Source of the DNA: a virus | Length of the DNA stretch: 34,387 nt | IMG/VR virus record: IMGVR_UViG_3300032893_000894 | Location: 1 to 34,387 of that record | Direction: 5' to 3' (one strand) | In this document: positions 3-34,387 of the stretch, one piece after another | Layout of the letters: every line of letters begins with the position of its first letter | How positions within the stretch are numbered: position 1 is the stretch's first letter | Made by a program: the position numbers and the translations under genes | Notes under the pieces: generated by a model | What the model saw: the letters and a program-made list of their open reading frames with translations, nothing else | The model's database searches: none | Told to the model about the DNA's origin: nothing

Positions 3-3000
3 TTCCAGTTCATCGGGTACGACCAGAGCGCCAACACGGTTGTTGAAATCAGCAACGGATCGCCATGGAATGTTTGGCAGGGCACGCTCTCGGGCGGCGG
101 CGGCCCGACGATCAATATTCCGCTCACCGTGCAGGAAGCGCTCTACCCTGGCGACAATACCGGCCACACGTACAGCGCGGCGGGCGGCATCTCGCGCACG
201 AACGATGCTTGGTGTAACGGCGTGCCGATCGCGGATTCGACCGGGCTCACGTCGCTGTCTAGCCTAGGGCTCACCGGTGCATCGGCAGGCCAATTCCGCA
301 CGCTCGAAACATGGCCCAGCGGCAATATCCGCGACATCGAAGTTTGTGGCGTGCTGGCGTCATACACAGCGGGGACCCCGCAGACGGTGACGCTGGTGAA
401 CTCTGCTTCGGGAAACTTCGGCACGCCATCAACGATGACCTCGGGCACGTCCACGATTACGATCAATACGACAGGCGGGACGTGCGGAAGCGGCAGCGCG
501 ATTTGCTTCACGATGAAAAGCGGAGCGAGCTTCGACGGGATCGATACGGCCACGATCGGCTCAACCACGCTGGTAGCAACCGGGACATCGACGGGCTTCC
601 AAGTCACCGCCCCGGCATACCCGAACACGGACTGCGGAACTGTGAACGTCTGCACTACGGCCTACACGAGCAAAAACTCATCGAACACGCTCACGGTTGA
701 AAAGGATGGTCCGGTTGAGGCGGTGATCCGCGCGGACGGGTCGCTCGAGGATGGCAGTGGAAACGTCTATGCGACGTACACCGCGCGCTTCTACTTCCGC
801 AATTCATCCTCGAAGGTCAAGGTTGTCAGCCAGCTCAAGAATGCGGCCTACGGAACCAGCAATACCTTCGCGACGGCCTGGAAAGGAATGCAGGCGTGGG
901 AATTCCGCATGGGCTCGAATCTCGGTTCCAGCCTTTCGTGGAACATCGGCAATCACACCGGAGTAACGACGCCGACCACGGGCACGATGACCGGCACGGA
1001 TACGGTGTTCATTTACCAGGGCCAGAATACGACCTTCGGCGATTCCACATGGTCCACATGCACCTCGCCGTGTAACGCCTTCACTACGGACGGGGGCTAC
1101 ACGATCAAAAAGAATGGCTCCGCATCGCAGACCGGAACCAATGCTCAGGCGCCTGTCGGCTATGCCTACCTCGCGAACGGCTCGGGCAACTACATCGAAA
1201 CCGGCACATTCTTTTTCGCCGGGCTCGGGCCTAAGTCGCTCGAATTCCAATCTGGCGGCACGGGCACGGACGCGATCCGCATCGGGCTCATGTCGGCGCA
1301 GAACACGTTCTCGACGCATCTTGCTTGGCCTCAGTGGAAAACCGATGAGTTTTATGTGGACTTCGGAACTAGCGCGCCGGGCAGCAACACCGCAATCGCT
1401 GACGTGATGCTCTCGCAACAGCACGCGCTCATCGCGAATCCATCGGTGTCGCAGTGGAACGCCTCGGGCGTGCTCACCTACCCACTCGACACGGCGGCGG
1501 ACGAAGATGCCTACTACTATTCGACCGTCACCGCGGCAAATCCGACCGTCACCACCACGAGCGGCTGCGCAGGCGGATCTTCCTACCTTACTCTCGGCTG
1601 CATTTACGACGTCGGAACTCAGACGGTGCCGCAATGGCCGCTCCTGGTTTACCCGGTCGGTTACACGTGGGAGCAAGGCGGCGGACGCGACCAGATCGAG
1701 TGGCGCGAGTCGGATCTTTATAACTGGATCACGCGCGGGCACACAGGCCGGTATCTCCAGGTCAAGCAGTTCGAGATGATGCAGCAGGACCAATGGAATT
1801 CGCACACCGATGGAACCTACACATGGCGCTCGAAAGCCAGTTCGCAGCTCGACACCACCGGCAGGCCGAACGCGACATCGAGCGGGCCAACGGGGACGTG
1901 TAACACCAACGGAACGACTACGGTCACGCTTGCGACCGGAGCTTACTTCGAGCCCTGGTATCACAGCACCTCGGGCGGCGAGACGATCACCATCGGCGGG
2001 ACGGGTTACTCCGTGGCTTCGGTCCAGTCACCGACATCCCTCACCACAACGGCGACGGTCCCGAGCGCAACGGGTGCGACATGCACATATTCTTCGCTCG
2101 GCGTGGCATCGCTGCGCACATGGTCTTTCGCGGGCGGTGCGGGGATCGACAATGCCCACTCGCATGTGACGGGCGCATTCCGCTGGTACGAGATTTCCGG
2201 CGATGAGGCGCAGCGCAGCGCCATCCGCGACACTTTCGACGATTATCTCCTGAACCTGAACACCAACCAAGCCTCCGTGACTTCGCAGATCGGAGTGACC
2301 GGCACCGGCGGCACAAGTACCACCACGCTGACGATTGCGACCGGCGGCCCGCTGCCCGCTTACGTCACAGTGGGATACCCGATCCTGATCGGCTCGACCG
2401 TTTCAAACTATGCGGCGTACACCATTACGAACATTTCAGGCTCGACGATTACTCTGGCTACGTCGGCGCCAACGATATCTTCGCCGAACGCGAAATGGAT
2501 TATCCTGGGAAGCACTCTGAGCCAGCGCGCCGCAGGTTTGTCGATGACCAACGGCGCGAAGTATTCAGACTTCCTGACGGCGCTCAGCGATACCACCGAC
2601 GCGGCGACGGCGCTCCAGTTGGCCGAGAACGTCTATTACATGGGGGTCAAGCCAGCGCTGTGCCAGTCGGGATATCCATCAGGCTGCGCTTTCGGCAGCG
2701 TCCACAATGGCCCGTGGCAATCGCAGGGCACGAGCCTGACGCGCGGGCTGATGTACCAGTCTTACAACACCGGCATCACGGACACGCCTTGCGATGCGTC
2801 TTCGGTGGATAATCGCGCGTCCTCGCCTTTCCAGATGGACATCGAAGAAGAGGGCTTGTGGGAACTGCGGCGTGTGGCCGGTTCATCCTGGACTGACTAC
2901 ACAACTTCATTTGATCTGTTAATTGGCGGGGTGCTTTGGTCACTTTCGGAGGGCTCTAACTTTGACGGCAGGTCGATTTGGACGAATAACGGATATCGCT

Positions 3001-4268
3001 ACTACGTGGCCACGGATATCGGGAACTGTGCGGGCGATGCGACGTACTACCCGGTGCGGGCAAACCAGTCGCTCTGGAACCATCACCTCTATTGGAACTA
3101 TTATTACGGGGCGAATCCCACCGCGCAGCAGAACTTCCAGGCGCAGGCAATTCAGCGGTTCATGTCTTCTAACCCGGTCGGTGTGGGGCTCACCGCGCAG
3201 GGCATCGACGTGGGAGCCTACCAGCTCAATTCGCTGATCTATCAGCTTCACAACGGCTCCAGCGCCACGCTTCAGACCGTGCCGATCACGAGCTTCACGA
3301 ACAACGGCGGCGGATCGTACACGATCGGCTGGACCACACCCAGCGGGACCTCGAACCTCAGAGCAAAGTGGAACACGCTCGCGGTTGTGGACTGGCTCGG
3401 CTTCGATCCGGTGAACAACGTGTTCAATACCGCGGCGTGCGCGGCGAGTCCGCAACTCGGCCTCCTGAATTGCGCATCGCCGACCACGAGCGCACCTTGG
3501 TTCGCGTCCACCGAGGTTAGCGGGATGCCGAGCCCGGTAACTGGCGCCCAAACGAAGACCATCACGGGCTTGGCATCCACCACCTTGACCAGCGCGAACT
3601 TCATGGTGAAGGCCATGACCACATCCAGCCCGCCTTCTGGCTGTACCCCCGTGATCACGAGCCCCACGGCGGGTGCCACGGTGTCGGGCACATCACAGAG
3701 CCTCACGGCGACGTTTACGGGCTGCTCAGGCGTTTACCAGGTTTTCTGGTACGTTCAGGCATCCAATGGAGCGGCAGTCACGCAGGACGATCAGCACCTC
3801 GCGGGGAAGTGGGTTTACGGCAATCCGGCGACGCTCGGCACGGTAAATTGGAATCCCTTCGTCACGAGCTTCGGTGGACCGTATACCACCTTACAGGTGG
3901 TAGCTACCGATGCGACCGGCTTGGTGCTCGGAACGTCGACGGCGGTCACATTCTCGACCGTCACGATCGAACCGCTGGCGACGTTCGCCTGGACCATCGC
4001 GGGGCCGTCGACCTGGACCGGGACGGTGACGGTCACGCCGACGTACACCGGAACGAATTCGACTCATGGGCGCATGGCGTGCTTCGTGGACGGGCAGGTA
4101 GTGATCGGTGGATCGGGCGCGATCAGCGGTGCGGGGACAATCGACACCACGAAATTCAACAATGGATCGCACATCGTCCGGTGCAACGGGCAGGACAACA
4201 GCCTGTCGCTGCCCGGGCTGGGGCTGTATCCTATGGAGTGGGAGCAGCAGGTGACCTTTGCGAATTAA
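3..4268 (+). CDS. Giant tail-associated protein, polysaccharide-lyase-like (5' end missing)
   Basis: The frame is already open at the first bases of the window, so the true start lies upstream; about 1421 residues are visible. Roughly visible residues 220-290 read as a beta-sandwich segment with EKDGPVEAVIRADG followed by a run of alternating hydrophobic strands. This resembles the N-terminal barrel of exo-rhamnogalacturonan-lyase-like (PcRGLX/YetA) proteins. Around residues 710-745 DNAHSHVTGAFRWYEISGDE looks like a helix pair of an alpha/alpha toroid. The last ~200 residues carry an Ig-like segment (TSPTAGATVSG) and a beta-rich end. A role as a virion-borne glycan-degrading or glycan-binding fibre is inferred from size, fold hints and place beside the tail genes. 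It overlaps the next gene by 11 bases. Family assignment is from remembered motifs, without a search. Confidence 0.6.
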   Translation, partial: FQFIGYDQSANTVVEISNGSPWNVWQGTLSGGGGPTINIPLTVQEALYPGDNTGHTYSAAGGISRTNDAWCNGVPIADSTGLTSLSSLGLTGASAGQFRTLETWPSGNIRDIEVCGVLASYTAGTPQTVTLVNSASGNFGTPSTMTSGTSTITINTTGGTCGSGSAICFTMKSGASFDGIDTATIGSTTLVATGTSTGFQVTAPAYPNTDCGTVNVCTTAYTSKNSSNTLTVEKDGPVEAVIRADGSLEDGSGNVYATYTARFYFRNSSSKVKVVSQLKNAAYGTSNTFATAWKGMQAWEFRMGSNLGSSLSWNIGNHTGVTTPTTGTMTGTDTVFIYQGQNTTFGDSTWSTCTSPCNAFTTDGGYTIKKNGSASQTGTNAQAPVGYAYLANGSGNYIETGTFFFAGLGPKSLEFQSGGTGTDAIRIGLMSAQNTFSTHLAWPQWKTDEFYVDFGTSAPGSNTAIADVMLSQQHALIANPSVSQWNASGVLTYPLDTAADEDAYYYSTVTAANPTVTTTSGCAGGSSYLTLGCIYDVGTQTVPQWPLLVYPVGYTWEQGGGRDQIEWRESDLYNWITRGHTGRYLQVKQFEMMQQDQWNSHTDGTYTWRSKASSQLDTTGRPNATSSGPTGTCNTNGTTTVTLATGAYFEPWYHSTSGGETITIGGTGYSVASVQSPTSLTTTATVPSATGATCTYSSLGVASLRTWSFAGGAGIDNAHSHVTGAFRWYEISGDEAQRSAIRDTFDDYLLNLNTNQASVTSQIGVTGTGGTSTTTLTIATGGPLPAYVTVGYPILIGSTVSNYAAYTITNISGSTITLATSAPTISSPNAKWIILGSTLSQRAAGLSMTNGAKYSDFLTALSDTTDAATALQLAENVYYMGVKPALCQSGYPSGCAFGSVHNGPWQSQGTSLTRGLMYQSYNTGITDTPCDASSVDNRASSPFQMDIEEEGLWELRRVAGSSWTDYTTSFDLLIGGVLWSLSEGSNFDGRSIWTNNGYRYYVATDIGNCAGDATYYPVRANQSLWNHHLYWNYYYGANPTAQQNFQAQAIQRFMSSNPVGVGLTAQGIDVGAYQLNSLIYQLHNGSSATLQTVPITSFTNNGGGSYTIGWTTPSGTSNLRAKWNTLAVVDWLGFDPVNNVFNTAACAASPQLGLLNCASPTTSAPWFASTEVSGMPSPVTGAQTKTITGLASTTLTSANFMVKAMTTSSPPSGCTPVITSPTAGATVSGTSQSLTATFTGCSGVYQVFWYVQASNGAAVTQDDQHLAGKWVYGNPATLGTVNWNPFVTSFGGPYTTLQVVATDATGLVLGTSTAVTFSTVTIEPLATFAWTIAGPSTWTGTVTVTPTYTGTNSTHGRMACFVDGQVVIGGSGAISGAGTIDTTKFNNGSHIVRCNGQDNSLSLPGLGLYPMEWEQQVTFAN

Positions 4269-7200
4269 GCTCATCCTTGCCTTTTTCTTCGCAGTCGCTC
4301 TCCACGCCGCGACACCGATGGAGTTGCGCCTTCAGCCTGGATACGAGGTATTTCTATGCACAACGAATCTGAGCAACTGCCCGAACTCGATAAGTATCTC
4401 TGGCTTGGACGTGAATACCGACGAGACGAGCGCGGCGGCAACCTTCCCAAGTCAGCCGACGATTGGTGGCGCACCTTTCCCTACAGCCCCGATAACTCTC
4501 TCTTCGTGCTCCAATTGCAGTACGGTGACGCTCACCGCTTCCTCCACTGCCGTCGGTTCAGTGCCGATCACATTTACGGATAGCCTCGGCTTCGCCCGCG
4601 TCCTGTGGGCGCACGTCAACACCTCGAACATCATGCCGCACTGGGGCACCGACCTCGCCACGTACACGACGTACACGGCGGGCAAATCGTTCCTGCCGGT
4701 GAGCCTGTTCTCGACAGGCGGTGCGTACCTGCAAGACACGCAATACCCCGCGTTTTCTTCGATGCCGAAGGACATGTTCAACTCTGGCGTGCTGGTGGCC
4801 GAGACGGGCCTCTCGACGCCCGAGAACCTTGGCGGGACGTACTCGCAGGCGCACTATGCCTCGGCGCTGGCTACGCAGATAGCCGCAAACACGGCGCTGC
4901 TCAACGGGTACGCGATGTATTACAACTATGCCGGGGACAATTGGATCAAGGCCACCGGCACCGATTCTGCACCTGGGCTATTCCAGTCTACTCAAAAGCC
5001 CGCTGCGGCCTGGAGTCCCACAGCCATGGCGACCGCTGTTCAGGCGCTGCAAACAGCGGCGAACGTGCTCACGGTGCAAATGTGCGACGAATGCGACACG
5101 AGTTGGGAGAACGTGCCAGGCGGCACGGTCAATTGGGCGAACGGGCTCACGTCGGTGAGTTGGAACGGAACAACGGTCACGATGACGTGCACCAATTACG
5201 TCCAGACGGCGGGACTAGCGATTCCCACCGGCTGCCCTTACAATGCGGCTAAACGGGGCATCATTACCGGAAGCGGAGTCAGCGGACTCGACTACGCCAA
5301 CGACAACGTAAGATATTCCTTGACGGTCACTACCACCGGAGGAAATGGCGGCTGGACTACGATCACGTTTCCACAGCCCGCAGGGTTGGTCGGCTCAGGA
5401 TCACTCACCAATGGCGGGAATCCGGGGACTACATTCAACTGGGCGGTGGCGCAGACATTCGATTCCTCCTACGCTTCCTGCACGACTTCGCCGAACTGCA
5501 CGCTCTATATCACCAATGGAGCAATTCGGCAGCTTTCGACGCAGTATTTTGCGAGCTCCGGCGGCGTGACGGCAAGCCCGCTGCTAGCTTACGAAGTCTC
5601 GGGATTGAATGGATCGTATGGTGCAAGTCAAAACTGGATGGGGGATCAAACGATAAGCGGATCGCCCACGATCTACGACATTGGCAATCCTTCTTCGCCA
5701 ATAGGCTTCATGCCGAATGGCGGGACGCTTTGGAATTTCAGCTATGCCGTGGGTGCGCTTCCCGCTGTCTTCCGAGACAGATATGCTCTGCTTGGGGCGA
5801 ATCGACTCCAGCCCATCTCAGGGAAAGTCTCGGGCGTCACGCAGAATTATGGCTTCGAAGGAAGCGCTCTCACGGTATCGACCTGCAACGGGAACACTTT
5901 GACATTCACCGGCAACCACGGACTCTCGAACATTCAGCCGTGGACGACGCGGATCTCTGTATCGGGGAACTCAACGAGCGCTTGCAATACTAATTTCTAC
6001 GTGATTGGCATCCCGAACGCGACATCGCTCACTGTGGCGCTGGCACAACCCACTTCCCTCGGATGCTATGCGGCATCGACCAGCCCGTCATGCAGCGGCA
6101 ACACCACGGCAGTAACGGCCACGCTCGACACAGGCGGAACGTTCCAGATCCTCTATATGTTCGCGGGCGCGAGCACCTACGGAAGCCGGGTGATCGGTCA
6201 GAACGACGGGGCGAGCAACTGCACGTATACGTTTAACCGCAGCCATTCCTTCACTGTGGCGACAGGCGTTTCTAATCTCGACAACAATACTTGGTTCATG
6301 ATTCCGGCTCCGTATGGTGCATCGTGCGTCGGAAGCCAGCCTCAGAATCGCGGCATCATCGCGCAGGTTCCGAACTTCTCCTCTGGCTCGGGCGGCACGG
6401 CTCTGCTGACGCCAGATAACGGCTACCATGCCGGAGTCAATTACGTGGCGTTCTCTTCGTTCGCCTCGCCGCGCTGGATGCACGCAAGCGCGGATCTCCA
6501 GGTGATCCTCGGAGCGCGGCAGCTCCGCTGGTACTTCGGGGGCTTAAACATTAACTATCCACCGGCCGGCGCAGCCAACTACAACACGGTATTCAACGAC
6601 ACAAACGCATCGTTTCAGGCTGCCGTGCATCCACGCTTCAACGAATTCGGGCGCGGGCAGAAGGACTGGGACGGCGGCGTGGAGGCGTTTAAGTTGTGGC
6701 AAGCGCTCTCGCCCTGCATCGACCAGCCTCGGGGCAGCGCACCGGACCTCGGACAAGGCGCAGGCTTCGAGACGGCGCTGTTTCTCTCGGCTACATGCAA
6801 CGCCATCATCGGAACCGTGTTGAACGACGGGCCTGGCGTGACGCGCACGGTGGACTTGTCCGGGATCGTGGTGAGCGGCCAGCCGACGATCCAATATTGC
6901 TCGGGCCAGAACGGCATCACGATCCGCTCAATCGCCTCTGGCGTGACCTCGGACACTTTCACGTTCACGCCAGATAACTGCACAGGCTTCGCTTACGTTG
7001 GCGCGACTAACTGGTGGACGCCTCCCGTGCGCGGGGTGAATTTCGCGGCGTGCCCCTCGGGATCGACTGGAATTTCCGTGCAATGGTCCTACTCACCGAT
7101 CGGCTTCGTGCCTGCGGTTTACAACGGCATCACTCCGCTGACGGTGAACGCGGGCGCTGCTTCGAGCGTCACCATTCCAGCAGATCGGCGCATCGGCACA

Positions 7201-7269
7201 ATCTACTACCGAGAGATTTGCTACTCGGGAACGGGGCCGACAGCCACAGGCGACGTGCAATCGTTCTAA
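4258..7269 (+). CDS. Large secreted-type protein with signal peptide, possible glycan-active tail protein
   Basis: 1003 residues. The TTG start has AGGTG a few bases upstream and overlaps the end of the preceding gene. Residues 1-18 are a textbook Sec signal peptide: basic MRIK, a hydrophobic core rich in Leu/Phe/Ala, then HAA before TP. The middle (about 200-300) contains YYNYAGDNW and MCDECDTSWE, which could be loops of a TIM-barrel hydrolase, with D277/E278 as candidate acidic residues. Residues ~550-600 look like the beta domain with an HGL-type turn often found in phage tail proteins. Near 856, NDGPGVTRTVDLSG resembles a C-terminal beta sandwich of glycosidases. Function is not certain: it may be a secreted enzyme, or a virion protein whose hydrophobic N-terminus has another purpose. 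Confidence 0.6.
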   Translation: MRIKLILAFFFAVALHAATPMELRLQPGYEVFLCTTNLSNCPNSISISGLDVNTDETSAAATFPSQPTIGGAPFPTAPITLSSCSNCSTVTLTASSTAVGSVPITFTDSLGFARVLWAHVNTSNIMPHWGTDLATYTTYTAGKSFLPVSLFSTGGAYLQDTQYPAFSSMPKDMFNSGVLVAETGLSTPENLGGTYSQAHYASALATQIAANTALLNGYAMYYNYAGDNWIKATGTDSAPGLFQSTQKPAAAWSPTAMATAVQALQTAANVLTVQMCDECDTSWENVPGGTVNWANGLTSVSWNGTTVTMTCTNYVQTAGLAIPTGCPYNAAKRGIITGSGVSGLDYANDNVRYSLTVTTTGGNGGWTTITFPQPAGLVGSGSLTNGGNPGTTFNWAVAQTFDSSYASCTTSPNCTLYITNGAIRQLSTQYFASSGGVTASPLLAYEVSGLNGSYGASQNWMGDQTISGSPTIYDIGNPSSPIGFMPNGGTLWNFSYAVGALPAVFRDRYALLGANRLQPISGKVSGVTQNYGFEGSALTVSTCNGNTLTFTGNHGLSNIQPWTTRISVSGNSTSACNTNFYVIGIPNATSLTVALAQPTSLGCYAASTSPSCSGNTTAVTATLDTGGTFQILYMFAGASTYGSRVIGQNDGASNCTYTFNRSHSFTVATGVSNLDNNTWFMIPAPYGASCVGSQPQNRGIIAQVPNFSSGSGGTALLTPDNGYHAGVNYVAFSSFASPRWMHASADLQVILGARQLRWYFGGLNINYPPAGAANYNTVFNDTNASFQAAVHPRFNEFGRGQKDWDGGVEAFKLWQALSPCIDQPRGSAPDLGQGAGFETALFLSATCNAIIGTVLNDGPGVTRTVDLSGIVVSGQPTIQYCSGQNGITIRSIASGVTSDTFTFTPDNCTGFAYVGATNWWTPPVRGVNFAACPSGSTGISVQWSYSPIGFVPAVYNGITPLTVNAGAASSVTIPADRRIGTIYYREICYSGTGPTATGDVQSF

Positions 7270-11247: not shown

Positions 11248-11513
11248 CGCCCGAGGACAAGATCGATTTCATCGAAAAGCAGATTGCCAACTGCGAAGCG
11301 GGCAAGTCGGACGTGATTATCTGTCCGTACTGCGGCGGACGGAATTACCGGCCAGCATCGCATGTGGTGAGCATCGATGGACTCATCGAGAAGCCCGAGC
11401 CGTTGTGCTGCCTCACATTCGGGAAGGCCGTGCGCGCGATTTTACAGCGCCAGGCTACACAGGAACTCGCCGACAACGCCGCGCGCATCGCTGAGAAGGT
11501 GGCCCAGAATTGA
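11244..11513 (+). CDS. Small zinc-knuckle protein
   Basis: 89 residues with ATGA coupling to the preceding gene. Residues ~27-30 give CPYCGG, and CC near 54-55 could supply the second metal-ligand pair, so a zinc ribbon is plausible. The C-terminal third (AILQRQATQELADNAARIAE) is helical. It ends by overlapping the TTG start of the portal gene. Function is unknown; a structural or packaging accessory is the most economical guess. Confidence 0.7.
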   Translation: MTPEDKIDFIEKQIANCEAGKSDVIICPYCGGRNYRPASHVVSIDGLIEKPEPLCCLTFGKAVRAILQRQATQELADNAARIAEKVAQN

Positions 11514-13867
11514 CCCCGACGATCGATCCGCCCGAGGTCGATCAGCCGACCGAAGAGCAAGAAGCTCCGCAGTCTGACTACGGCGAAAATAACCGCGAAC
11601 TTCCCAAGCAGCTGATCGAAGCCATCAAGGCCGCGGTCAAGGAATTTCAGGAGCAGGAAAAGTACACGCGCCGGCGCGAGGTTCTGCATGACCGAAGAAA
11701 TCGATTCTACGAACGCAGCTATCAGCATTTGTCCTGGAACTCCCAGAATGGCGGTTTCGTACTGGCCAGCCCAGGAGCTTCCATCGTCAACTCCGCTGGT
11801 AACAGCGTCCAGTGTCCCTCCTACATCGACGACTACGATATCTTTGGCCCTTATCTATGGATTTTGATTGCGATTCTGACGCAGAATACGCCGGGCGTGA
11901 ACTTCCAGCCCATTGATCCTTCGCAGCCGGACGATATCGACAAGGCGCGTGCGGCAGAGGCTTATGGTCACGCTTTCGACCGGATGAACGACATCAAGGA
12001 AATCCAGACCGAGATGGTGCGGATGATGGCTCTGAGTGGGCGCGTGGTTTCCTGGACGCGCACGGAACAGGACGCGCAGCGCTTCGGGTACGAGCAGGAT
12101 CAGATCACGCCGAAGTATTTCCAGCGCACCACCATCTACGGAACGCTCGAAACTAAGGTTCCGATCCTGGCGAAGAAATTTGATCGCGACTGTCCCTATG
12201 TTCTGATTTACGATGACCCGGATTTGAAAGTGGCGAAGAGCGACTATCCCTGGATCGCCGACAAGATCCGCGCGAACGTCGCGGCCTTGGGCGAATCGAT
12301 GTACGAGCGTACCGCGCGCCTCGGGGTGCTCAACGGGACGCGCAACCAAGCGCAGATCGGGGACTCGTTCACACACCTGGTGAGCCGGGTCAACGCCTTC
12401 CTGAGGCCTGCCGCGTTCACGGGCGACCTGTATGATAACGTGCTCGAAAAAGCTGGACCCGGCGACACGGTTGCGGAACAGGACGAAAACAGTCAGACGC
12501 AAACTCGCACGATGACCGTGGGCGAGAAGCTGAAGCAACTCTTCCCGGACGGATGCCGCGCGGTATTCATGGGAGACGAATACGCCGAGAGCTTCAATTG
12601 TTCGCTGGATGACGAACTGGACATCCGGTTTCCGTTTCCCGGTGACGGGATGTTCCGCAAGGCCATCATGGACCCCATGGTGGTGGTGCAGGATGCCTTC
12701 AATGACGCAGTAAACGCCGCCAGAGAGATATTCGACACCGGCTGGCCGTCGACATGGGTGGATGCCACGGAGGACGAATATGCGGCCATTACGAGCCAGC
12801 GTGCGGCGCCCTACGCTTACCGCCAGAAGAAAGCGAAATCGGGCATCAAACTGCCCGACAGCTTCTACAGGGAGCCGAATCCAGAGCTTCCAGCCACATT
12901 CGTTGAATTCCTGGAGATGTTGCAGTCCAATCTTCCACAGTTCATGCTCTCGACGCCTCCGGCGCTCTTCGGCGCGCAAATGGAAGACCAAAAGACCGCT
13001 TCAGGGTACGCGCAGGCTAGAAATCAAGCCACCGGGCGCCTCGGTCTGATCTGGCAGTCGATCCAGCATATGTTCGCCAGAATACGGTACCAGAGCGCTC
13101 TCGCGGCGAGCAAAAACGAGCAGCAAACCGGCCAGATGATAATTCCCGGCGGTGAAGGGCAACAGGACATCAATGTTGACCTGGATCAGCTCAAAAAGGG
13201 CAATTTCGGCTGCTATCCCGATGAAGATTCGAGCTTCCCGGAGACTACGCAGCAGAAGCGCGCGACTTTGCAGGGGCTTATCACCCTCGCGGGAACATCT
13301 CCGGCCATGCAGCAGCTTCTTGACAACCCGGATAACATCGAAGAGATGAAGCGGCTCAATGGCTTTGACGAATTGGTGCTCCTGCCCGCCGAGGCGCGCA
13401 ACAAGCAGCTTGCGGAGATAGAAATTCTACTTCAGCAAGAACCGATTCCGGCGTCTCCAGAGGAAATGCAGGCAGCGATGGTCCAGCACGCCGCCGGCGC
13501 GATCGCAGCGAAGGCGCAAGGGACCATGGAGCCGCAGATGATGGCGCCGCCCATGCATCCGTCCGTCCCGGTGGACGAACTCGACTACCATCAGTGGGAG
13601 TTCGAGAAATGCCAGGAATGGCTATCGAGTGCCGCACGCCGCGAGGAAGATAAAAAGGGCAACCAAGCGGGCGTTCAGAACGTTAAGTTACATGCGCTGG
13701 CCCATCGTGCTATGCTCATGCAAATGCAAGCCGCTGCCGCAGCCGCCGCGCCACCGCCTCAGCCGCATCCGGTTGCCGCGAAGCCCGCGCCCGCGCCGCC
13801 GAAAGGACCGCCGGGCGCGACGCCGGGACCGAGCGCGCCAGCGGCGCCGCCAGCGATAGCAGCATAA
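11510..13867 (+). CDS. Portal protein (head-tail connector)
   Basis: 785 residues. The portal is the dodecameric ring at one capsid vertex through which DNA passes. Evidence is position (terminase upstream, scaffold and capsid downstream), size close to podovirus portals and typical content. It has an N-terminal RRREVLHDRRNRFYERSYQH helix region and WILIAILTQNTPGVNFQP. A mid-section (about 480-540) has ALFGAQMEDQKTASGYAQAR followed by a long helix, as in portal stem regions. The last ~60 residues are low-complexity Ala/Pro. The TTG start overlaps the previous stop and has AAGGTGG eight bases upstream. A slightly different start cannot be excluded. Confidence 0.85.
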   Translation: MTPTIDPPEVDQPTEEQEAPQSDYGENNRELPKQLIEAIKAAVKEFQEQEKYTRRREVLHDRRNRFYERSYQHLSWNSQNGGFVLASPGASIVNSAGNSVQCPSYIDDYDIFGPYLWILIAILTQNTPGVNFQPIDPSQPDDIDKARAAEAYGHAFDRMNDIKEIQTEMVRMMALSGRVVSWTRTEQDAQRFGYEQDQITPKYFQRTTIYGTLETKVPILAKKFDRDCPYVLIYDDPDLKVAKSDYPWIADKIRANVAALGESMYERTARLGVLNGTRNQAQIGDSFTHLVSRVNAFLRPAAFTGDLYDNVLEKAGPGDTVAEQDENSQTQTRTMTVGEKLKQLFPDGCRAVFMGDEYAESFNCSLDDELDIRFPFPGDGMFRKAIMDPMVVVQDAFNDAVNAAREIFDTGWPSTWVDATEDEYAAITSQRAAPYAYRQKKAKSGIKLPDSFYREPNPELPATFVEFLEMLQSNLPQFMLSTPPALFGAQMEDQKTASGYAQARNQATGRLGLIWQSIQHMFARIRYQSALAASKNEQQTGQMIIPGGEGQQDINVDLDQLKKGNFGCYPDEDSSFPETTQQKRATLQGLITLAGTSPAMQQLLDNPDNIEEMKRLNGFDELVLLPAEARNKQLAEIEILLQQEPIPASPEEMQAAMVQHAAGAIAAKAQGTMEPQMMAPPMHPSVPVDELDYHQWEFEKCQEWLSSAARREEDKKGNQAGVQNVKLHALAHRAMLMQMQAAAAAAAPPPQPHPVAAKPAPAPPKGPPGATPGPSAPAAPPAIAA

Positions 13868-15892: not shown

Positions 15893-17167
15893 GTGGCTAT
15901 CGCTTCAGTTTCCGCTGCAATCGCTTCGCAGCATGAATATCTGAGACCCAATCTCGAAGAGCTTGCTCTTCTTTCCGGGACGCTTTGGAAACGCATCAAC
16001 GCGCGCACCGATATCAAAGCGATCTCGAACCGTCCCGCGCGCATCCCGTTCCAGCCCTTGACCGGCGGTATCTTTCGCACCGGCTCAGCTCTGTTCGACG
16101 GCAACGATATGGGTCAAGGCTCCGGGCCGCAGGAGACTTTCGGGACGCTCTCGTGCGTCTCGTTCCTCCAGGCGTCGGAATATACGGCTCTCACCGAGTA
16201 CTCAACCGACTCTGATGAGAAGGCCATTGCGAACTACGTCACGCTGACGCAGAAGCAGGCTGCCGAGACGTTTGGCGGCTACATGGACGCGCTGTACTGC
16301 TATGGCGATGGCTCTAACACGCTCGATACCGTGGTTTCCACCACCACCAACGGGCTGGTGGTGAACAACGCCAACGCCTTCCAGGACAACCAGCTGGTTG
16401 ACATCTGGTCCGCGCTCGGCGGAACGCTCCGCGGAACGGTCCAGATCCAATCCGTCGATATCGCGAACAACACGATTTGGCTGACCGGGACGTATCCGGC
16501 GGGGACGACCGCTGGCGACCTGATCCTGGTAACGGGCTCTGCCGGCGTCGCGAATTCAGGGCTGTTCGGCCTGCTCTATTACTGGGCAGCCGGCAACACC
16601 GGGAACTACATGGGTATCCAGAAGTCGGCCTATCCTGGCAAGTTCTCAACCCCCAACATCAATTTCGGCTCATCGGGCGGATCGTTGACGCCCGCGAGCG
16701 TCCGCGCTCTCGAGGCCCAGATCATTCTGGCGCTCGGCGAAGAGCGCGCGGATTCGTCGGAACTCATTGCCCACATGAACGTGGACATGGCGGCGGCGTG
16801 GGAGAACAATGCGCTCCCGGTGCAGTCCATCATCTACAACCAGATGAAAGGCGACGAATCAGCCGACATGCTGAAGAAAAAGCAGACCTCAACCATCGCG
16901 GGCCGCGAAATCGTTCGCAACGTCCGCGCCAGGCCGGGCCTGATTCACTTCATCCCGCTCAAGCACGTTTTCCGCCTGGAAACCAAGGCGGTCGATTATT
17001 ACGAAGTCGGTGGGCAGACCATCTTTCCGGCCTACGGCGCCTCCGGCGGCTTGATGTCGGCCATGCTGTTCTACCTCGTAACCATGGTGCAAACCGGGCT
17101 GGGTCAACCGCGTTTGGCCGCGTTCATGAACAACGTCACGATTCCGAAGTACTACTTCGGGCACTAA
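15893..17167 (+). CDS. Major capsid protein
   Basis: 424 residues with a GTG start and AGAGGTG five bases upstream. It forms the icosahedral shell. Support comes from position after portal and scaffold, its own promoter and leader, and content like HK97-fold capsid proteins: an N-terminal helical arm (ISQ-free, HEYLRPNLEELALLSGTLWK), KQAAETFGGYMDALY spine-like helix (about 120-135), NSGLFGLLYYW, a late helix with LALGEERADSSELIAHMNV and a beta-rich C-terminus ending IPKYYFGH. ATG at 15891 is in another frame and gives only a short product. I cannot name a specific homologue. Confidence 0.85.
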   Translation: MAIASVSAAIASQHEYLRPNLEELALLSGTLWKRINARTDIKAISNRPARIPFQPLTGGIFRTGSALFDGNDMGQGSGPQETFGTLSCVSFLQASEYTALTEYSTDSDEKAIANYVTLTQKQAAETFGGYMDALYCYGDGSNTLDTVVSTTTNGLVVNNANAFQDNQLVDIWSALGGTLRGTVQIQSVDIANNTIWLTGTYPAGTTAGDLILVTGSAGVANSGLFGLLYYWAAGNTGNYMGIQKSAYPGKFSTPNINFGSSGGSLTPASVRALEAQIILALGEERADSSELIAHMNVDMAAAWENNALPVQSIIYNQMKGDESADMLKKKQTSTIAGREIVRNVRARPGLIHFIPLKHVFRLETKAVDYYEVGGQTIFPAYGASGGLMSAMLFYLVTMVQTGLGQPRLAAFMNNVTIPKYYFGH

Positions 17168-18751: not shown

Positions 18752-21088
18752 ATGCCGGGACCGCCTTACGATAATCTCGAAACGATCGTAACGGCGGCTC
18801 GTATCCGGCTCAACGATTCGATCGCTTCCGCCAACGGCGAAGTTCTCACCGACAATGCTTCCTTCACGATTCAGACCATCAATAACGGCTGGCGCAGACT
18901 TCAGGAATTCTTGGCTGAGTCAAATGCGGCGCGGCTCATCAATGAAACCATCATCACGGGACTCCCGGTCGTAGCAACATCCGATCCTGGAATCTTCACG
19001 CAACTCAACTGGACCGGCTTCCTAGACGGCGCGAATCCGTCAAACCCGCTGTTTGTCTTGCCGCAGGATATGATCTTTCCATTGCGGCTGTGGGAGCGGC
19101 AAAGCGGGCTCAATCCGCCGCAGCAGTTCACCGACATGGAATTGGTCATTGATGGTTGGCCGGGCAATCCGAAGCAGTCGCGGAATTACAACTGGGAATG
19201 GCGCTCGGAAACACTGATCCTCTCGGGCTCGACCGTATCCATGGACCTGAAGATCCGCTACGCCGCGTACCTGCCCGACTTCGTGCCAGCGGCGACGCAG
19301 GCGTTTAACAATCAGCCGGTGCCGATCCTGCGCGTGCTCGATTCATTCGCCTGGTACATCGCTACGGAGATGGCGGCGGCGCGCGGCGACATGGACGCGA
19401 CCGCACTCATTACTCAGGCCGAGGCTGCGGCGAAAAAGCTCATCGAGCAGGACACTCGGCGCGCGGCGATGCGCAGCCAGTTCACGGTTCCAGATATCCC
19501 GCCCGCGCAAGGCAATACGCCGTATGATTCGGTGAGCACCATGATAAACGCCGCGAGAGTGCGGCTGAACGCGCTGGCGAAAGGCGCTGGCGATTCGGTG
19601 AGCACGAGCCAAGCGTTCCTGCAACAGGCAACGAATACGGCTTGGCGTAGACTCCAGGAATTCCTGATCGGGCAGAAATTCAAACGGCTGATGTTCACCG
19701 CGCAGGTATTGAATCTTCCGGCGGTGTCGAGCACCGATCCCGGTATCATGTGCAGCCTCACCTGGAATGGATACTCGAACTCGGGCGGCGCGCCGAATCC
19801 CGGCCTGAAGCTCCCGGCGAATCTTGTGCGGCCGTTGAAGCTCTGGGAGCGCGCCTCGGGCCAGTCCAACCCGCCACCGTTCACGCCCATGGAATACGTC
19901 GAGAACGGCCTCGGGCAGCAAGCCAAGCAGGGGCGGAATCTGAACTGGGAATGGATCTCGGATTCGCTCAATATCCCCGGCGCAACACAGGCCATGGATT
20001 TGCAGATCCGGTATGAAGGCTATTTGCCGGATTTTGTCACGAGCGGAACAACCCCATGGTATTTGCAGCCAATTCCTATTTCCCGTGCGCTTGATTCGCT
20101 GGCATGGTTCATGGTTGCTGAGATTGCGACTGCGCGGCCTGATTTGAATCTCGACGCCGATGCTATCAAAGGAATCCAGTCCACGGCGGAAGCGGCGGCC
20201 ATGCTGCTTGTTTCGCAGGACAAGAATGCAGCGGATCAGCGAGGGGAATGGACGGTCCCCGATCTTGCCGGGCCTTACGGAACGACCCCGGCGCCCTACG
20301 ATTCGGTGGTGTCGGTCCTGAACGCGGCGCGCGCTCGACTCAACCGGGTTGCTGGCGTCTCGGGCGATATCATCTCCATCAATCAGGCATTCACCCAGCA
20401 GTATTTCAACAACGCATGGAGAAAGTTCCAGGAATATTTGGCGAACCTCGGCGCGGATGATTTGATGACCGAAATTCTATTGACCGCACTGCCTACCGTT
20501 ACCTCCCTGGACCCGGCCAGCCAGACCGTTCTGAGCTGGTCGGGCTTTTTCGACGGGACGAATCAGCAGAGCGCCCCGCAATTGCCGAACGACCTGATCC
20601 GGCCTGTGAAAATCTGGGAACGCTACACCGGCACGAATGCGCTTTTCCAAGATCCCGGCATGGAGCAGATGGTCGATGGGTTGGTGACGCTTCAAAAGTT
20701 CACCTATAACGGGCAATGGTGCTGGCAGGCGGGCGCAATCCTGATGCCCGGCTCGACGCAGTCCATGGATCTGAGAATCAGGTACGCGCGGTACCTGCCG
20801 GATTTCGTGCAGAACGGCTACGGGCAGAACATTTCACCCTGGTACGCGCAGCCTGTTCCGATCGCGAGGTGCCAGGATTCGCTATCGCTGTATGTCTGCG
20901 CCGAAGTCGCCATGGCGCGGCCCGATCTGAATCTGGATCCGTCTGAGCTGCGGATGGAAGCCGAAGCCATGGCCGATAAGGTCTTCAACCGGGACGTGCG
21001 AAGTAAGCAGCGGGTGAATGTCCGCCGGATCTCCAGAAGTGGAAGACTTGAAGGCGCGGGCGGCGGAGACTACGGATTGCTATACTGA
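18752..21088 (+). CDS. Triplicated head-tail adaptor-like protein
   Basis: 778 residues made of three consecutive copies of one ~250-residue domain, starting near residues 5, 257 and 515. Each copy has the same landmarks: PYD(N/S) with an AARxRLN helix, a W(R/K)xxQE(F/Y)L helix, a P(L/V)(K/R)(L/I)WER strand, MDLxIRYxxYLPDFV, and a DS...(A/V)xAR helix. Single-domain versions of this pattern (AARVRLN...WRRLQEF) occur in phages as adaptor/connector or head-completion proteins. Position before a nozzle-like protein matches T7 gp11 and P22 gp4. The function is therefore inferred as the ring below the portal. The copies are diverged at base level, so the duplications are not recent. Its start has only a weak AGG upstream. 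Confidence 0.75.
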   Translation: MPGPPYDNLETIVTAARIRLNDSIASANGEVLTDNASFTIQTINNGWRRLQEFLAESNAARLINETIITGLPVVATSDPGIFTQLNWTGFLDGANPSNPLFVLPQDMIFPLRLWERQSGLNPPQQFTDMELVIDGWPGNPKQSRNYNWEWRSETLILSGSTVSMDLKIRYAAYLPDFVPAATQAFNNQPVPILRVLDSFAWYIATEMAAARGDMDATALITQAEAAAKKLIEQDTRRAAMRSQFTVPDIPPAQGNTPYDSVSTMINAARVRLNALAKGAGDSVSTSQAFLQQATNTAWRRLQEFLIGQKFKRLMFTAQVLNLPAVSSTDPGIMCSLTWNGYSNSGGAPNPGLKLPANLVRPLKLWERASGQSNPPPFTPMEYVENGLGQQAKQGRNLNWEWISDSLNIPGATQAMDLQIRYEGYLPDFVTSGTTPWYLQPIPISRALDSLAWFMVAEIATARPDLNLDADAIKGIQSTAEAAAMLLVSQDKNAADQRGEWTVPDLAGPYGTTPAPYDSVVSVLNAARARLNRVAGVSGDIISINQAFTQQYFNNAWRKFQEYLANLGADDLMTEILLTALPTVTSLDPASQTVLSWSGFFDGTNQQSAPQLPNDLIRPVKIWERYTGTNALFQDPGMEQMVDGLVTLQKFTYNGQWCWQAGAILMPGSTQSMDLRIRYARYLPDFVQNGYGQNISPWYAQPVPIARCQDSLSLYVCAEVAMARPDLNLDPSELRMEAEAMADKVFNRDVRSKQRVNVRRISRSGRLEGAGGGDYGLLY

Positions 21089-21512: not shown

Positions 21513-24500
21513 GTGGCGTTCAACACTCAAGGCGGTATAGCTGTACCGCTGACTGTGTTCGGAAGTCTCTGCACCGAAATGGCCGCGCCGGATCTGCCGG
21601 AAGGCGTGTCGCCGGATAATGCCGATGTGGTCTTCGTGCCCGGCTCCGTGGCATCGCGCCCCGCCTTCCAAAAAGTCTTCGGAACACCATTCGCAGGGCC
21701 GCCGTTGTGGGCCAAAAGCTACGTCAATCAAACTTCGACATACAATCTGTATCTCGATTCGACCGGGATCATTTGGGTTGAGAACGTCATTGCCACACCC
21801 GGCGTCTACACACAATTAGCGAAGACAACGCCAGGGTCTTATGCGAAATCCATCACGGCTTTCGGGCGCGAATACATCGCAATCTCGGACGGCTTGCACG
21901 GCACCGATTCACCGCTTCAGTGGGACGGAACGAACCTGGACCGCGTGACACAGGACGGGCCCGGCGCGCCTCCGTCGATCGCAAATCTGATAATCGCCGA
22001 ATCGAACATCTCAAGCCTCGCGCGCGCCGCGAATGTGGTGACGGTGGTGACTGCGACCTCGCACGGTCTCAAGGTCGGCTATCAAGCGCAAATCTCTGGC
22101 GCCGCGAATCAACTCATCGGTGCGCTCACGTCCGTGGTCATCAACAACGAACAGCAGCCGGGCATTGCGACGGTGACGATGGGATCGGCGCACGGCTTGG
22201 TTCCTGGAAACTTCGTCACTATCAGCGGAATCTATGCGGCTCCGGTGGGCACCGCCATCACGAATCTTTACCGTGAGAGCCAGGTAACGAAGGTGGTGAC
22301 GTCCACCGCTCACGGCTTGCAGCCAGGCGCGACGATTCAGATTCTCGGGGCAACGACAGGCTTCAATGGAACCTGGACTGTCGATGCGGTGATCGACGCG
22401 CTCAACTTCACCATCGTCCAGGTGGGCGCGGACGCCACAGGAACCGGTGGAACGCTTTCCCTTCTGTGGCCGATCCCGGATGTCGCGGCGGATGAATTAT
22501 ACGAAGTGATCTCGGCGCCCACCGCCGACACGTTTCAAATCGCCATCAGCTACAACGACGGAACGTGGACGACGGGGAATGTGTACTTCACTTGGAACGG
22601 GACCTTCTTCGTTCAGAGCGTGATCTCGGCGACTTCGTTCACCTATCAGCAGTACGGGCCGAACGGAACCGCGGGAGCCTCGGGAATGGTCACGCCTTAC
22701 GGCCAGGCCGCTCCGGGTATTCATCAAATGCAAGTCCTGTTCCTAACACGGCAGGGCTACACCACAAGGCCGAGCCCGCCAGTGCAGTTCATCGCGAACG
22801 GCGGCCAGTATTTGAGCGTGACGAACATCCCCATTGGACCGCCCAACGTTGTCGCGCGCATCCTCGCTTTCACCGGAGCAGGCGGCGACCTGTTCTTCTA
22901 TCTCCCTGTCTCGGCGCAGGTCAACGGGCAAGTCGTCTCGACGCCGACCCAAATCAATGACAACACTACCACGAGCGCAACGCTTGATTTCTCGGACAAT
23001 AGCCTCTTCGCCGCCCTTGGAATATCTATATCAGGTAATAATCTCGCTTCGCAGATCATCCTCGACGGAGCCTTGGGTTTTGGATTCTACGGATCAAGAC
23101 TTGTTTGTTGGGGGCAAAGGAACCAAATCCAGAATCTACTCAACATGGGATTCAATGGAGGATATTTGCCAAGTGCAAGTACACTTCCGAGTGGATGGAC
23201 CGCTGCCGGAGGCGGTGCGGGCGGAACTCTCTCACCAGGCATTTCTCTTGGCTCGGGATATAGCTGGAGCGTTACCGGAGCGGGCTCCATTTATCAATCG
23301 TTTTTCCAAGATGCTTACGGCGCTCCAATCGGAACACCCAACACCAAATATCGCGCGCGCGCCTTCGTCCAAGGCGGAACAATCACCGTAACGATCTCCA
23401 GTGTATCGGCGAGCTTCACATCGACTGCGACACTCGCCGGAAACGCCTCGGGTCAGTGGGCTGAAGCGGCGTTCACCCAAGCGATGCCGAATACGATCCC
23501 GACTGACATGATCCTGTCGATTTCAGGGACCGCAGGCACGTCGGTTGACAACATCAGCATCATCTACGCGCAGACGCCGTACCTTGAAACGGTGCTGTTC
23601 GGCAGTTATGTGGACAACCCTGAAGGCTTCGACGGACTCAGTGGAAAATTCGGGCCGACCGATGACACGCGGAAGGTCATGGACGTCGGGATCATTCGCA
23701 ACACGTTTTACCTCGTGACGCAGGACCCGAGCGGACGTCTGCACGCGACAAATGATAACGGCGTCACGGAACCTTCGGGCTGGACGATCTCGCAGGTGGG
23801 CGCGAACTGCGGCGTGCTTTCTGCCTTCGGGCTGACGCATTCGCAGGCGGATGATTTCTCGGCGGGCGGCGGTGAAGAATGGTTCGCATGGCCGTCGGCT
23901 TCCGGCATCAGGATTTTCGGCGGAGATCAGCCGTGGAAAATCAGCCAAGAGAACCAGCCGATCTGGGATTCGATCAACCTTGCAGCGGCGAAGACGATCT
24001 GGGGCTTGAATGATCCGGTTTCTCGCGTCATGTACTTTGGGCTTCCGCTTCCGCGCGACCATGGAGATGACAATGTTCCCACCAAGGTCTACGTCTTGAA
24101 CTATCGGGAACTCGACACACCTTACCAGATTTTCTCGGCGGCTCCCTACCATCCATCATTCGCGGGGCACTTGATTGCGACGGACAATACGCGGAAATCA
24201 ACGCTCTGGAATCGCCCGATGAACGGAGCAGCGATGATGTACCGCGCTCCAGGACAACTCTCGCCGGTGTTCCTCGGTGGATCGTTCCAGAACGTCTACA
24301 CGTTGAATCCGGCGAAGTTCACAGATGACGATTACGGCCTGATCGCACCGTACTATACGACTTACTTTTTCGTGAACGCCATCCAGGAATCAGGTTTGCG
24401 AAATGAAAAAGGCGAACCGCTCGGAGCGTACCGGAAGATTCTGGCGTATCTCACGGCTTTCGTTGCGGGCGTGGGCAATGTGACGATCACAGCCTTCCCG

Positions 24501-24722
24501 GATTCGCTGACTAACCCATGGCCGCTTACCTGCACGCGAACGCTTGCGGCAAATCCGACTTATGATCTGGAGTGGGCCGGCGGAAACGTCATCGGCCAGC
24601 GTATCGCAATTCGGGTTGCCTCGACCCCGCTGCAAGGCCAGACCGATAACGCTTTTAATCTTCAGAAGCTCATGTGTGTGATGCGGGCGCAACGGCACCT
24701 TCCGATCCGGGGCGCGGCATGA
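21513..24722 (+). CDS. Large tail protein (nozzle/tubular protein B-like) with carbohydrate-binding-like domain
   Basis: 1069 residues with a GTG start. The N-terminal third includes three HGL...G..v.I.G units (about residues 185, 228 and 265; SHGLKVGYQAQISGA, AHGLVPGNFVTISGI, AHGLQPGATIQILGA), the beta motif annotated in phage tail proteins as E1-FCCH-like. Residues ~540-690 read as a jelly-roll of the CBM4/9 type (GWTAAGGG ... YSWSVTGAGSIYQSF ... DNISIIYA). The remaining part has repeated WxxS-type strands that could be a propeller. Following the adaptor and preceding internal virion proteins, it corresponds in order to T7 gp12, so a nozzle or tail-spike base is inferred. The stop overlaps the next ATG. 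Confidence 0.7.
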   Translation: MAFNTQGGIAVPLTVFGSLCTEMAAPDLPEGVSPDNADVVFVPGSVASRPAFQKVFGTPFAGPPLWAKSYVNQTSTYNLYLDSTGIIWVENVIATPGVYTQLAKTTPGSYAKSITAFGREYIAISDGLHGTDSPLQWDGTNLDRVTQDGPGAPPSIANLIIAESNISSLARAANVVTVVTATSHGLKVGYQAQISGAANQLIGALTSVVINNEQQPGIATVTMGSAHGLVPGNFVTISGIYAAPVGTAITNLYRESQVTKVVTSTAHGLQPGATIQILGATTGFNGTWTVDAVIDALNFTIVQVGADATGTGGTLSLLWPIPDVAADELYEVISAPTADTFQIAISYNDGTWTTGNVYFTWNGTFFVQSVISATSFTYQQYGPNGTAGASGMVTPYGQAAPGIHQMQVLFLTRQGYTTRPSPPVQFIANGGQYLSVTNIPIGPPNVVARILAFTGAGGDLFFYLPVSAQVNGQVVSTPTQINDNTTTSATLDFSDNSLFAALGISISGNNLASQIILDGALGFGFYGSRLVCWGQRNQIQNLLNMGFNGGYLPSASTLPSGWTAAGGGAGGTLSPGISLGSGYSWSVTGAGSIYQSFFQDAYGAPIGTPNTKYRARAFVQGGTITVTISSVSASFTSTATLAGNASGQWAEAAFTQAMPNTIPTDMILSISGTAGTSVDNISIIYAQTPYLETVLFGSYVDNPEGFDGLSGKFGPTDDTRKVMDVGIIRNTFYLVTQDPSGRLHATNDNGVTEPSGWTISQVGANCGVLSAFGLTHSQADDFSAGGGEEWFAWPSASGIRIFGGDQPWKISQENQPIWDSINLAAAKTIWGLNDPVSRVMYFGLPLPRDHGDDNVPTKVYVLNYRELDTPYQIFSAAPYHPSFAGHLIATDNTRKSTLWNRPMNGAAMMYRAPGQLSPVFLGGSFQNVYTLNPAKFTDDDYGLIAPYYTTYFFVNAIQESGLRNEKGEPLGAYRKILAYLTAFVAGVGNVTITAFPDSLTNPWPLTCTRTLAANPTYDLEWAGGNVIGQRIAIRVASTPLQGQTDNAFNLQKLMCVMRAQRHLPIRGAA

Positions 24723-32762: not shown

Positions 32763-33430
32763 AAAACCTCACAGACTATCTCTCGCTCCAGTGCGCCTAC
32801 CTTGTCATCCTGAATCACGACAGGACCTTTGAGCAACACGACCCAAAGCCGCTTACCTTTCCACTTATCAGGATTCAGCGTGGCGTGCAAGGCATTCTTC
32901 GTGCAGATCTGTAGGGGACCATCGATCTTCTGTACAAGTCCTGGATGAGCCGATTCCGAAGACTTTCCGCCATTTGACGGCAATCCGTTTTTGTCGGACT
33001 TCCAGAAGGCGTAGAACCCTTCGTCGCTGAGATCAATTCCCATCGAAGCAAATACCATGCGCCAATAACCGTAGCCGTAGCCGGAGCCGTCGCCGTCGCC
33101 GTCGCCGTCGCCGTAGCCGAAGCCGTAGCCGTCGCCGGAGCCGTCGCCGGAGCCGTAGCCGTAGCCGTAGCCGTAGCCGTAGCCGTCGCCGTAGCCGTAG
33201 CCGTCGCCGAAGCCGAAGCCGTAGCCGTCGCCGTCGCCGTCGCCGGAGCCGTAGCCGTAGCCGTAGCCGTAGCCGTAGCCGTCGCCGTAGCCGTAGCCGT
33301 CGCCGTAGCCGTAGCCGTAGCCGTAGCCGGAGCCGTCGCCGTAGCCGTCGCCGTAGCCGGAGAACGCCTCAGTCCATTGGGGCAGCGCACCCCATTCTAC
33401 CCCCAGGGATCTCATTGATCTGCACCACAT
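32759..33430 (-). CDS. Gly-Tyr-Gly-Asp repeat protein with conserved C-terminal domain
   Basis: About 223 residues if begun at ATG 33430; ATG 33415 (MRSLGVEWGALPQW) is an alternative and no ribosome site decides between them. Residues ~23-121 are almost pure alternating Gly with Tyr, Asp, Ser or Phe (GYGYGDGYGYGDGYG and variants). The C-terminal ~100 residues are a proper domain: YWRMVFASMGIDLSDEG, CTKNALHATLNPDKWKGKRL and WVVLLKGPVVIQDDKVGALE. I associate such tails with a family in phages and bacteria of unknown function. Repeats may form a flexible or amyloid-like arm. Confidence 0.75.
   Translation of the reverse strand: MWCRSMRSLGVEWGALPQWTEAFSGYGDGYGDGSGYGYGYGYGDGYGYGDGYGYGYGYGYGSGDGDGDGYGFGFGDGYGYGDGYGYGYGYGYGSGDGSGDGYGFGYGDGDGDGDGSGYGYGYWRMVFASMGIDLSDEGFYAFWKSDKNGLPSNGGKSSESAHPGLVQKIDGPLQICTKNALHATLNPDKWKGKRLWVVLLKGPVVIQDDKVGALEREIVCEVL
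33070..33362. repeat. Tandem hexanucleotide-based repeat tract
   Basis: Built on the plus strand from CCGTAGCCGTAGCCG and CCGTCGCCG units. The 3-base step varies among GTA, GTC, GGA and GAA and the pattern recurs in blocks of about 50-100 bases (for instance similar arrays around 33120-33180 and 33240-33300). It encodes the Gly-Tyr/Asp stretch in the minus-strand gene. Such a tract is prone to slippage and recombination, so its length may differ among related genomes or be wrong in assembly. Confidence 0.85.
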
Positions 33431-34121: not shown

Positions 34122-34387
34122 CATTAGAACAATTGCAACAGATTTTCCCGGATGCGACTGCTGAAACTTGGCATCAGCATCCCAACGGTGGCGGATGGGT
34201 ACAGAACACTGCGCGGGTCTCCGGCGATGCGCGGGTCTCCGGCAATGCGCAGGTCTCCGGCGATGCGCAGGTCTTCGGCAATGCGCAGGTCTCCGGCGAT
34301 GCGTGGGTCTCCGGCACTGCGTTGGTCTTCGGCGATGCGCGGGTCTTCGGTAATGCGCAGGTCTTCGACACTGCGCGGGTCTCCGGT
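34118..34387 (+). CDS. Hexapeptide-repeat (left-handed beta-helix-like) protein, 3' end beyond window
   Basis: ATG overlaps the preceding stop as ATGA. The first ~30 residues (MTLEQLQQIFPDATAETWHQ) form a capping segment. From about residue 31 to the window end the sequence is a run of six-residue units of the kind A-x-V-(S/F)-G-(D/N/T) (ARVSGDARVSGNAQVSGDAQ...). Each unit is 18 bases and the DNA copies are nearly identical (for example GATGCGCGGGTCTCCGGC). The pattern is the left-handed beta-helix fold of hexapeptide proteins. Only the first 90 codons are visible. No acyltransferase His is seen so far. Confidence 0.75.
   Translation, partial: MTLEQLQQIFPDATAETWHQHPNGGGWVQNTARVSGDARVSGNAQVSGDAQVFGNAQVSGDAWVSGTALVFGDARVFGNAQVFDTARVSG
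34208..34387 (+). repeat. 18-base tandem repeat inside the hexapeptide-repeat gene
   Basis: Consecutive units of the form GCG-NGG/CAG-GTC-TCC/TTC-GG(C/T)-(GAT/AAT/ACT). About ten copies are seen to the window end. Low divergence between units suggests recent expansion and possible length variation between relatives. Confidence 0.85.

Follow-up and report, generated by a model that had tools for sequence, protein, structure and literature searches.

The head-tail adaptors of podoviruses share a common fold without sequence homology (PMC6702177), namely a bundle of helices in which a fibre dock is inserted between the second and the third helix (PMC6702177, PMC9509320). In T7 gp11, acidic residues of the alpha1-alpha2 loop meet the positively charged nozzle, and a C-terminal arm reaches the portal (PMC6702177). 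Until crAss001 was described, the podoviruses observed had only a single such ring, built from a single protein; the tail of crAss001 has a stack of five 12-mer rings made by four paralogous ring proteins, and by gene number the genes of the nozzle-end rings (gp34, gp35) come first, that of the portal ring (gp43) adjoining the muzzle gene gp44 (PMC10172136). Adaptors, as well as stacked adaptor paralogues encoded by separate genes, are already known. The preliminary description of the locus studied here had stated that known adaptors are single-domain proteins, which agrees with the structures found, although the stacked paralogues of crAss001 qualify the statement. The locus lies in a complete IMG/VR record of 34,387 bases (hereafter, the window).

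The triple-repeat gene, its predicted fold and its surroundings

The triple-repeat ORF (Table 1) begins with ATG, has no internal stop and encodes a single 778-aa product, composed of three units of ~250 aa that start at residues 5, 257 and 515. Unit-against-unit BLASTP comparisons gave identities of 43.6, 42.3 and 43.2% (E = 1.2e-73, 1.5e-60 and 1.7e-62, far beyond chance), and the three domains were also recovered by the family profile. The three copies announced in the preliminary description were thereby confirmed, together with all the motifs listed there (AARxRLN, W(R/K)xxQE(F/Y)L, (L/I)WER, MDLxIRYxxYLPDFV and DS...AR) and the divergence of the copies at base level, at which ~70-87% identity is left in short stretches only. 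The full 778-aa protein had no second match elsewhere in the record. No convincing ribosome-binding site was observed for internal starts at the domain borders, the site of the true start being also weak.

An AlphaFold model of unit 3 (m6d2a81d43b64) built from 31 homologous units reached a pLDDT of 88.9; an earlier model based on three sequences was poor (pLDDT 58) and was set aside. The predicted elements were helices at residues 5-20 and 32-52, strands over residues 58-191, and helices at residues 194-208 and 216-240, followed by a disordered tail, which together make up a predicted four-helix bundle interrupted after helix 2 by a beta fibre dock. The best 14 Foldseek matches of the model were all from phage portal or tail complexes. 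VIA-align 2 Z scores were 12.6 for A4, 12.3 for VP1, 12.0 for Pa223, 11.6 for GP4, 11.2 for SU10, 10.2 for N4, 9.5 for DEV and 8.0-8.1 for the crAss001 ring proteins, and the VIA-align Z was 7.0 for T7 gp11 and 6.0 for the KP32 tail tubular protein A. As modelled, unit 3 has the podovirus head-tail adaptor fold, and the same fold is assigned to units 1 and 2 by their homology to unit 3. The adaptor identity originally proposed for the repeat is supported by these matches, and the position in the gene block agrees with it. At the sequence level, searches of the adaptor against PHROGs, Pfam, PDB sequences and INPHARED yielded chance-level matches at best, none of them credible. A 741-aa adaptor match in Vibrio phage VP2 was considered as a possible multi-adaptor chain; in the VP2 record, the likely gene is annotated as resembling the RB30 outer capsid protein.

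In the relatives that were long enough, a block with the order terminase, portal, scaffold, capsid, zinc-ribbon gene, adaptor(s), small gene and probable nozzle was shared, and every relative with a complete block had the adaptor between the capsid gene and the probable nozzle gene, portal and nozzle being assigned by position. The ORF of the putative portal had no match in PHROG or Pfam. The zinc-ribbon-like gene was located directly 5' of the adaptor genes also in the relatives covering that stretch. Upstream of the terminase, the window has two very large ORFs, at 129-4268 (1379 aa) and 4258-7269 (1003 aa), which possibly encode a tail spike or an enzyme; the former gave a weak, below-cut-off match to a PcRGLX-like beta-sandwich domain. 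At 33069-33359 the hexamer CCGTAG is repeated in tandem (48.5 copies) inside minus-strand ORFs coding for low-complexity repeats of the GYGDGYGYG type, and an 18/36-base tandem array (TGCGCGGGTCTCCGGCAA) occupies the very end of the record (34210-34386).

Table 1. Coordinates of the adaptor gene, its parts and neighbouring head-tail genes in the window
Feature	Position	Strand	Basis
Putative portal protein, from position and size	11510..13867	+	Relatives have homologues in the corresponding position
Major capsid protein	15893..17167	+	PHROG 14242, E 1e-10
Zinc-ribbon-like protein, ~245 aa	18001..18735	+	Weak zinc-ribbon matches only
Triple head-tail adaptor (ring) protein, 778 aa	18752..21088	+	ORF, unit alignment, family profile
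Adaptor domain 1, non-last class, putative nozzle-end ring	18764..19519	+	Tree, acidic loop, no basic tail
Domain 1 alpha1-alpha2 loop DSIASANGEVLTDNAS, net charge -3, nozzle type	18815..18862	+	Analogy to T7 gp11 (PMC6702177)
Linker from domain 1 to 2 (SQFTVPDIPPAQGNT-PYDS), 19 residues	19475..19531	+	Similar motif in four fused-double contigs
Adaptor domain 2, non-last class, putative middle ring	19520..20293	+	Tree, uncharged loop, no basic tail
Domain 2 alpha1-alpha2 loop, net charge 0	19571..19615	+	
Linker from domain 2 to 3 (GEWTVPDLAGPYGTTPA-PYDS), 21 residues	20243..20305	+	
Adaptor domain 3, last/single class, putative portal ring	20294..21085	+	Tree, model with pLDDT 88.9, fold
Domain 3 alpha1-alpha2 loop, net charge 0	20345..20389	+	
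Basic C-terminal tail DVRSKQRVNVRRISRSGRLEG..., putative portal-gripping arm	20993..21085	+	Compare T7 embracing helix
Probable nozzle protein, from position, size and synteny	21513..24722	+	Weak match (E 4e-4) to PHROG 'virion structural protein'

Copy number and ancestry of the adaptor domains

A search with the full protein detected no close relatives in IMG/VR or INPHARED, and unit profiles were needed. These, together with a capsid protein profile, retrieved about 20 distinct adaptor-bearing phage contigs from IMG/VR, while no prokaryote genome contig was matched by either adaptor or capsid. One copy was present in L008, L010, L014, L015, L016, L019, L020, L024 and L041; no further hidden copies were detected in these across the whole records, which may be fragments. 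Two separate tandem genes were observed in L023 and L047, and three in L003 (= L004), L009, L011 (= L012), L013 and L042 (= L043), whereas the domains were fused in pairs in L002, L005/L006 and L007, and in a chain of three, among the IMG/VR relatives found, only in the window. The partial locus L051 has at least two adaptor copies. The preliminary description had suggested a search for relatives differing in copy number from one to three; such relatives were found in IMG/VR, with separate or fused copies.

Some of the relatives had additional features. The single copy of L014 (5983-6990) contains an extra insert of ~70 residues in or after the beta dock, and the first copy of L047 (12540-13451) also has an extra insert there, each possibly an added docking domain. 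The alpha1-alpha2 loop of the single copies of L019 and L020 is 39 residues long, and that of L041 at least 31, compared with 16, which suggests that these copies contact the nozzle differently.

A tree of 33 units placed the last and single copies on one side and all other copies on the opposite side (support 98/96), and when the loop and tail columns were removed the same split was still the best, with weak support (47/81). Domain 3 of the window was on the side of the last and single copies in both trees, and copies 1 and 2 clustered with the first copy of the fused doubles (100/98; 95/90 without the loop and tail columns). The AU test rejected a recent triplication confined to this phage (p = 0.007), a result which, together with copy classes common to several phages, indicates that the last and non-last classes were separated by an old duplication. 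The earlier claim of an old fusion therefore stands for the duplication, but a chain of three fused domains was observed in a single record. That copies 1 and 2 are one-to-one orthologues of the copies in the unfused three-gene phages was disfavoured, not firmly (AU p = 0.075 and 0.028); judging from these tests, the extra copy of the fused line probably arose separately from that of the unfused phages, an assignment that is likewise not firm.

Position-specific contact elements and a proposed stack of rings

The alpha1-alpha2 loop and the C-terminal tail varied with the position of the copy. In 31 units, the mean net charge of the loop was -3.0 in single, -2.9 in first, -1.0 in middle and -0.4 in last copies, and the mean charge of the tail was +6.4 in single, +3.6 in last, +1.0 in middle and +0.3 in first copies (p-values of 1e-5 and 5e-5, computed as if related sequences were independent). 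The classes overlapped at their edges, the loop charge being -1 in the first copy of L007 and -2 in the middle copy of L003 and in the middle and last copies of L011, and the tail charge being 0 and +1 in the last copies of L011 and L023. This pattern was spotted by eye in alignment A5 and then quantified in the same alignment; the later check consisted of L041, L042, L047 and L051, which were fetched afterwards with the capsid protein and obeyed the same position rule, the loop of L041 being truncated in this comparison. The most negative loop was that of the first copy in nine of nine multi-copy phages, as well as in three of three loci fetched later via the capsid protein. In the tree built without the loop and tail columns, the tail type changed once, while the loop type, labelled by position, changed at least six times, indicating that the loop tracks position and not ancestry.

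The motifs of the two elements were distributed in the same manner. Loops of single and first copies were mostly DAIxxxGGDIxTDxQP-like; in the unfused phages every non-first loop was three residues longer, and in the fused proteins the non-first loops were devoid of the first aspartate, with one aspartate still kept. Tails of last and single copies were variants of QRxNxRRxxRSGR, with a basic RRxxRSGR that was absent from the non-last copies, so that within the triple chain this candidate portal arm is carried by domain 3 only. The unfused non-last copies ended in variants of KxSExGKMxDxYTP, and the fused ones had in place of a free tail an EWTVPDIP-like linker motif, of which (F/W)(T/V/I)(V/I)P is conserved between the fused proteins. 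The suggestion in the preliminary description that each domain could have diverged for a different contact can be made more specific, with a putative nozzle-type loop on the first copy and a putative portal-type tail on the last.

With a probability of roughly 0.7, we consider that the window encodes fused podovirus adaptor domains, of which 12 chains form three stacked rings (36 domains), with copy 3 at the portal and copy 1 at the nozzle. The stacking, the stoichiometry of the copies and the 12-fold symmetry are what we infer from the analysis, the symmetry being taken from homologues. The distribution of the two elements is the one predicted for a stack: single copies have both, the tail is missing from first copies, the loop from last copies, and both from middle copies. 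Since the portal-type tail is kept only by the last copy and the nozzle-type loop only by the first, the copies would be located at different heights.

The original proposal had been a single ring with built-in asymmetry, in which four triple chains (or six double ones) lie side by side in 12 positions. Twelve is divisible by both 3 and 2, the N and C termini of a four-helix up-down adaptor are on the same side, and a lateral neighbour at ~26 A (estimated for an assumed ring radius of 50 A) is within the maximum span of the 19-21 residue linkers, 65-71 A. One ring is ~46 A high, taking the 23 nm of the five crAss001 rings, and the linkers could therefore climb one ring as well as reach sideways, so that geometry alone does not decide. 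In such a mixed ring, however, all the subunits would face both portal and nozzle and should keep both elements, whereas each element is kept by one copy; the unfused three-gene relatives would in addition require three separate proteins in strict alternation, and crAss001, the known case with several paralogues, stacks them instead. The loop on the first copy only and the tail on the last only speak against the four-chain ring, which we consider unlikely.

A ring formed by domain 3 alone, with domains 1 and 2 outside it as docks for fibres or a collar, would make use of the beta domain between helices 2 and 3, which serves as a fibre dock in T7 and SU10; domains 1 and 2 nevertheless retain both helical-bundle regions, and the nozzle-type loop of domain 1 would be idle, making this arrangement quite improbable. 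Post-translational cuts between the domains, with the pieces assembling into three separate rings, would give the same end product as the relatives with three separate genes. We regard this as very unlikely, given that no protease site was recognised and that the linker motif is conserved as if for packing, both of which weigh little in either direction.

In the stacked arrangement, 12 triple chains would be assembled under a dodecameric portal, each domain type forming its own ring. Domain 3 would form the portal ring and hold on to the portal by its basic tail, the middle ring would consist of domain 2, and domain 1 would form the distal ring, whose acidic alpha1-alpha2 loops would seat the nozzle. 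Each of the conserved linkers would leave one ring at its top and climb the following one, taking over from the free tail that the unfused non-last copies would use to hold the ring above. Duplication or loss of adaptor copies would set the number of rings and hence the length of the tail, and in a fused chain the storeys would be fixed in their order and in a 1:1:1 ratio. We lean towards the broader reading of a covalent three-storey tail barrel, in a lineage that tunes tail length between one and three rings by gain, loss and fusion of copies, with contacts that switch by storey.

Neither storeys fused in one chain nor a lineage with one to three copies, fused and separate, was found in the open-access literature searched, which covers the field incompletely. 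If the stacked arrangement is true, this lineage would offer, within one conserved block, naturally occurring tails of one, two and three rings, from separate as well as fused copies. It would then be testable how a storey is added, what specifies the order of the storeys (the loop below and the tail above) and whether sequential assembly is replaced by fusion. Protein channels of set length could also be modelled on a natural three-ring chain.

Comparison with known systems

T7 gp11 and the KP32 tail tubular protein A resemble unit 3 in having a helix bundle and a beta fibre dock (PMC6702177; Z = 7.0 and 6.0), but they are single-domain proteins with one ring per virion, and no sequence similarity to the window adaptor was found. 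SU10 gp11 and the N4/DEV adaptors (DEV gp83) have the fold predicted for unit 3 (Z = 9.5-11.2) and form a 12-mer between portal and tail; they too are single-domain, with one adaptor ring. In the GP4 portal-tail complex (PDB 8jov), chains G and 2, which are distinct and separate, both match the adaptor model, and GP4 is possibly a second phage with two adaptor-fold proteins.

The likeness to the crAss001 rings R1-R4 (gp43, gp40, gp35 and gp34) lies in the adaptor fold (Z ~8) and in the presence of several paralogues per phage, three in the window and two or three in many of its relatives; no sequence similarity between the window adaptor and the crAss001 ring proteins was found. Separate encoding of the paralogues, as in crAss001, was seen in L003, L009, L011, L013, L023, L042 and L047, in contrast to the window, L002, L005, L006 and L007. 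The number of paralogues differs among the relatives of crAss001, down to one (PMC10172136), as in the lineage of the window, and the crAss001 gene order from nozzle end to portal is the one proposed for the window domains. The crAss001 paralogues are separate genes distributed over about ten genes and are 15-31% identical, whereas those of the window are adjacent, 42-44% identical and fused into one chain.
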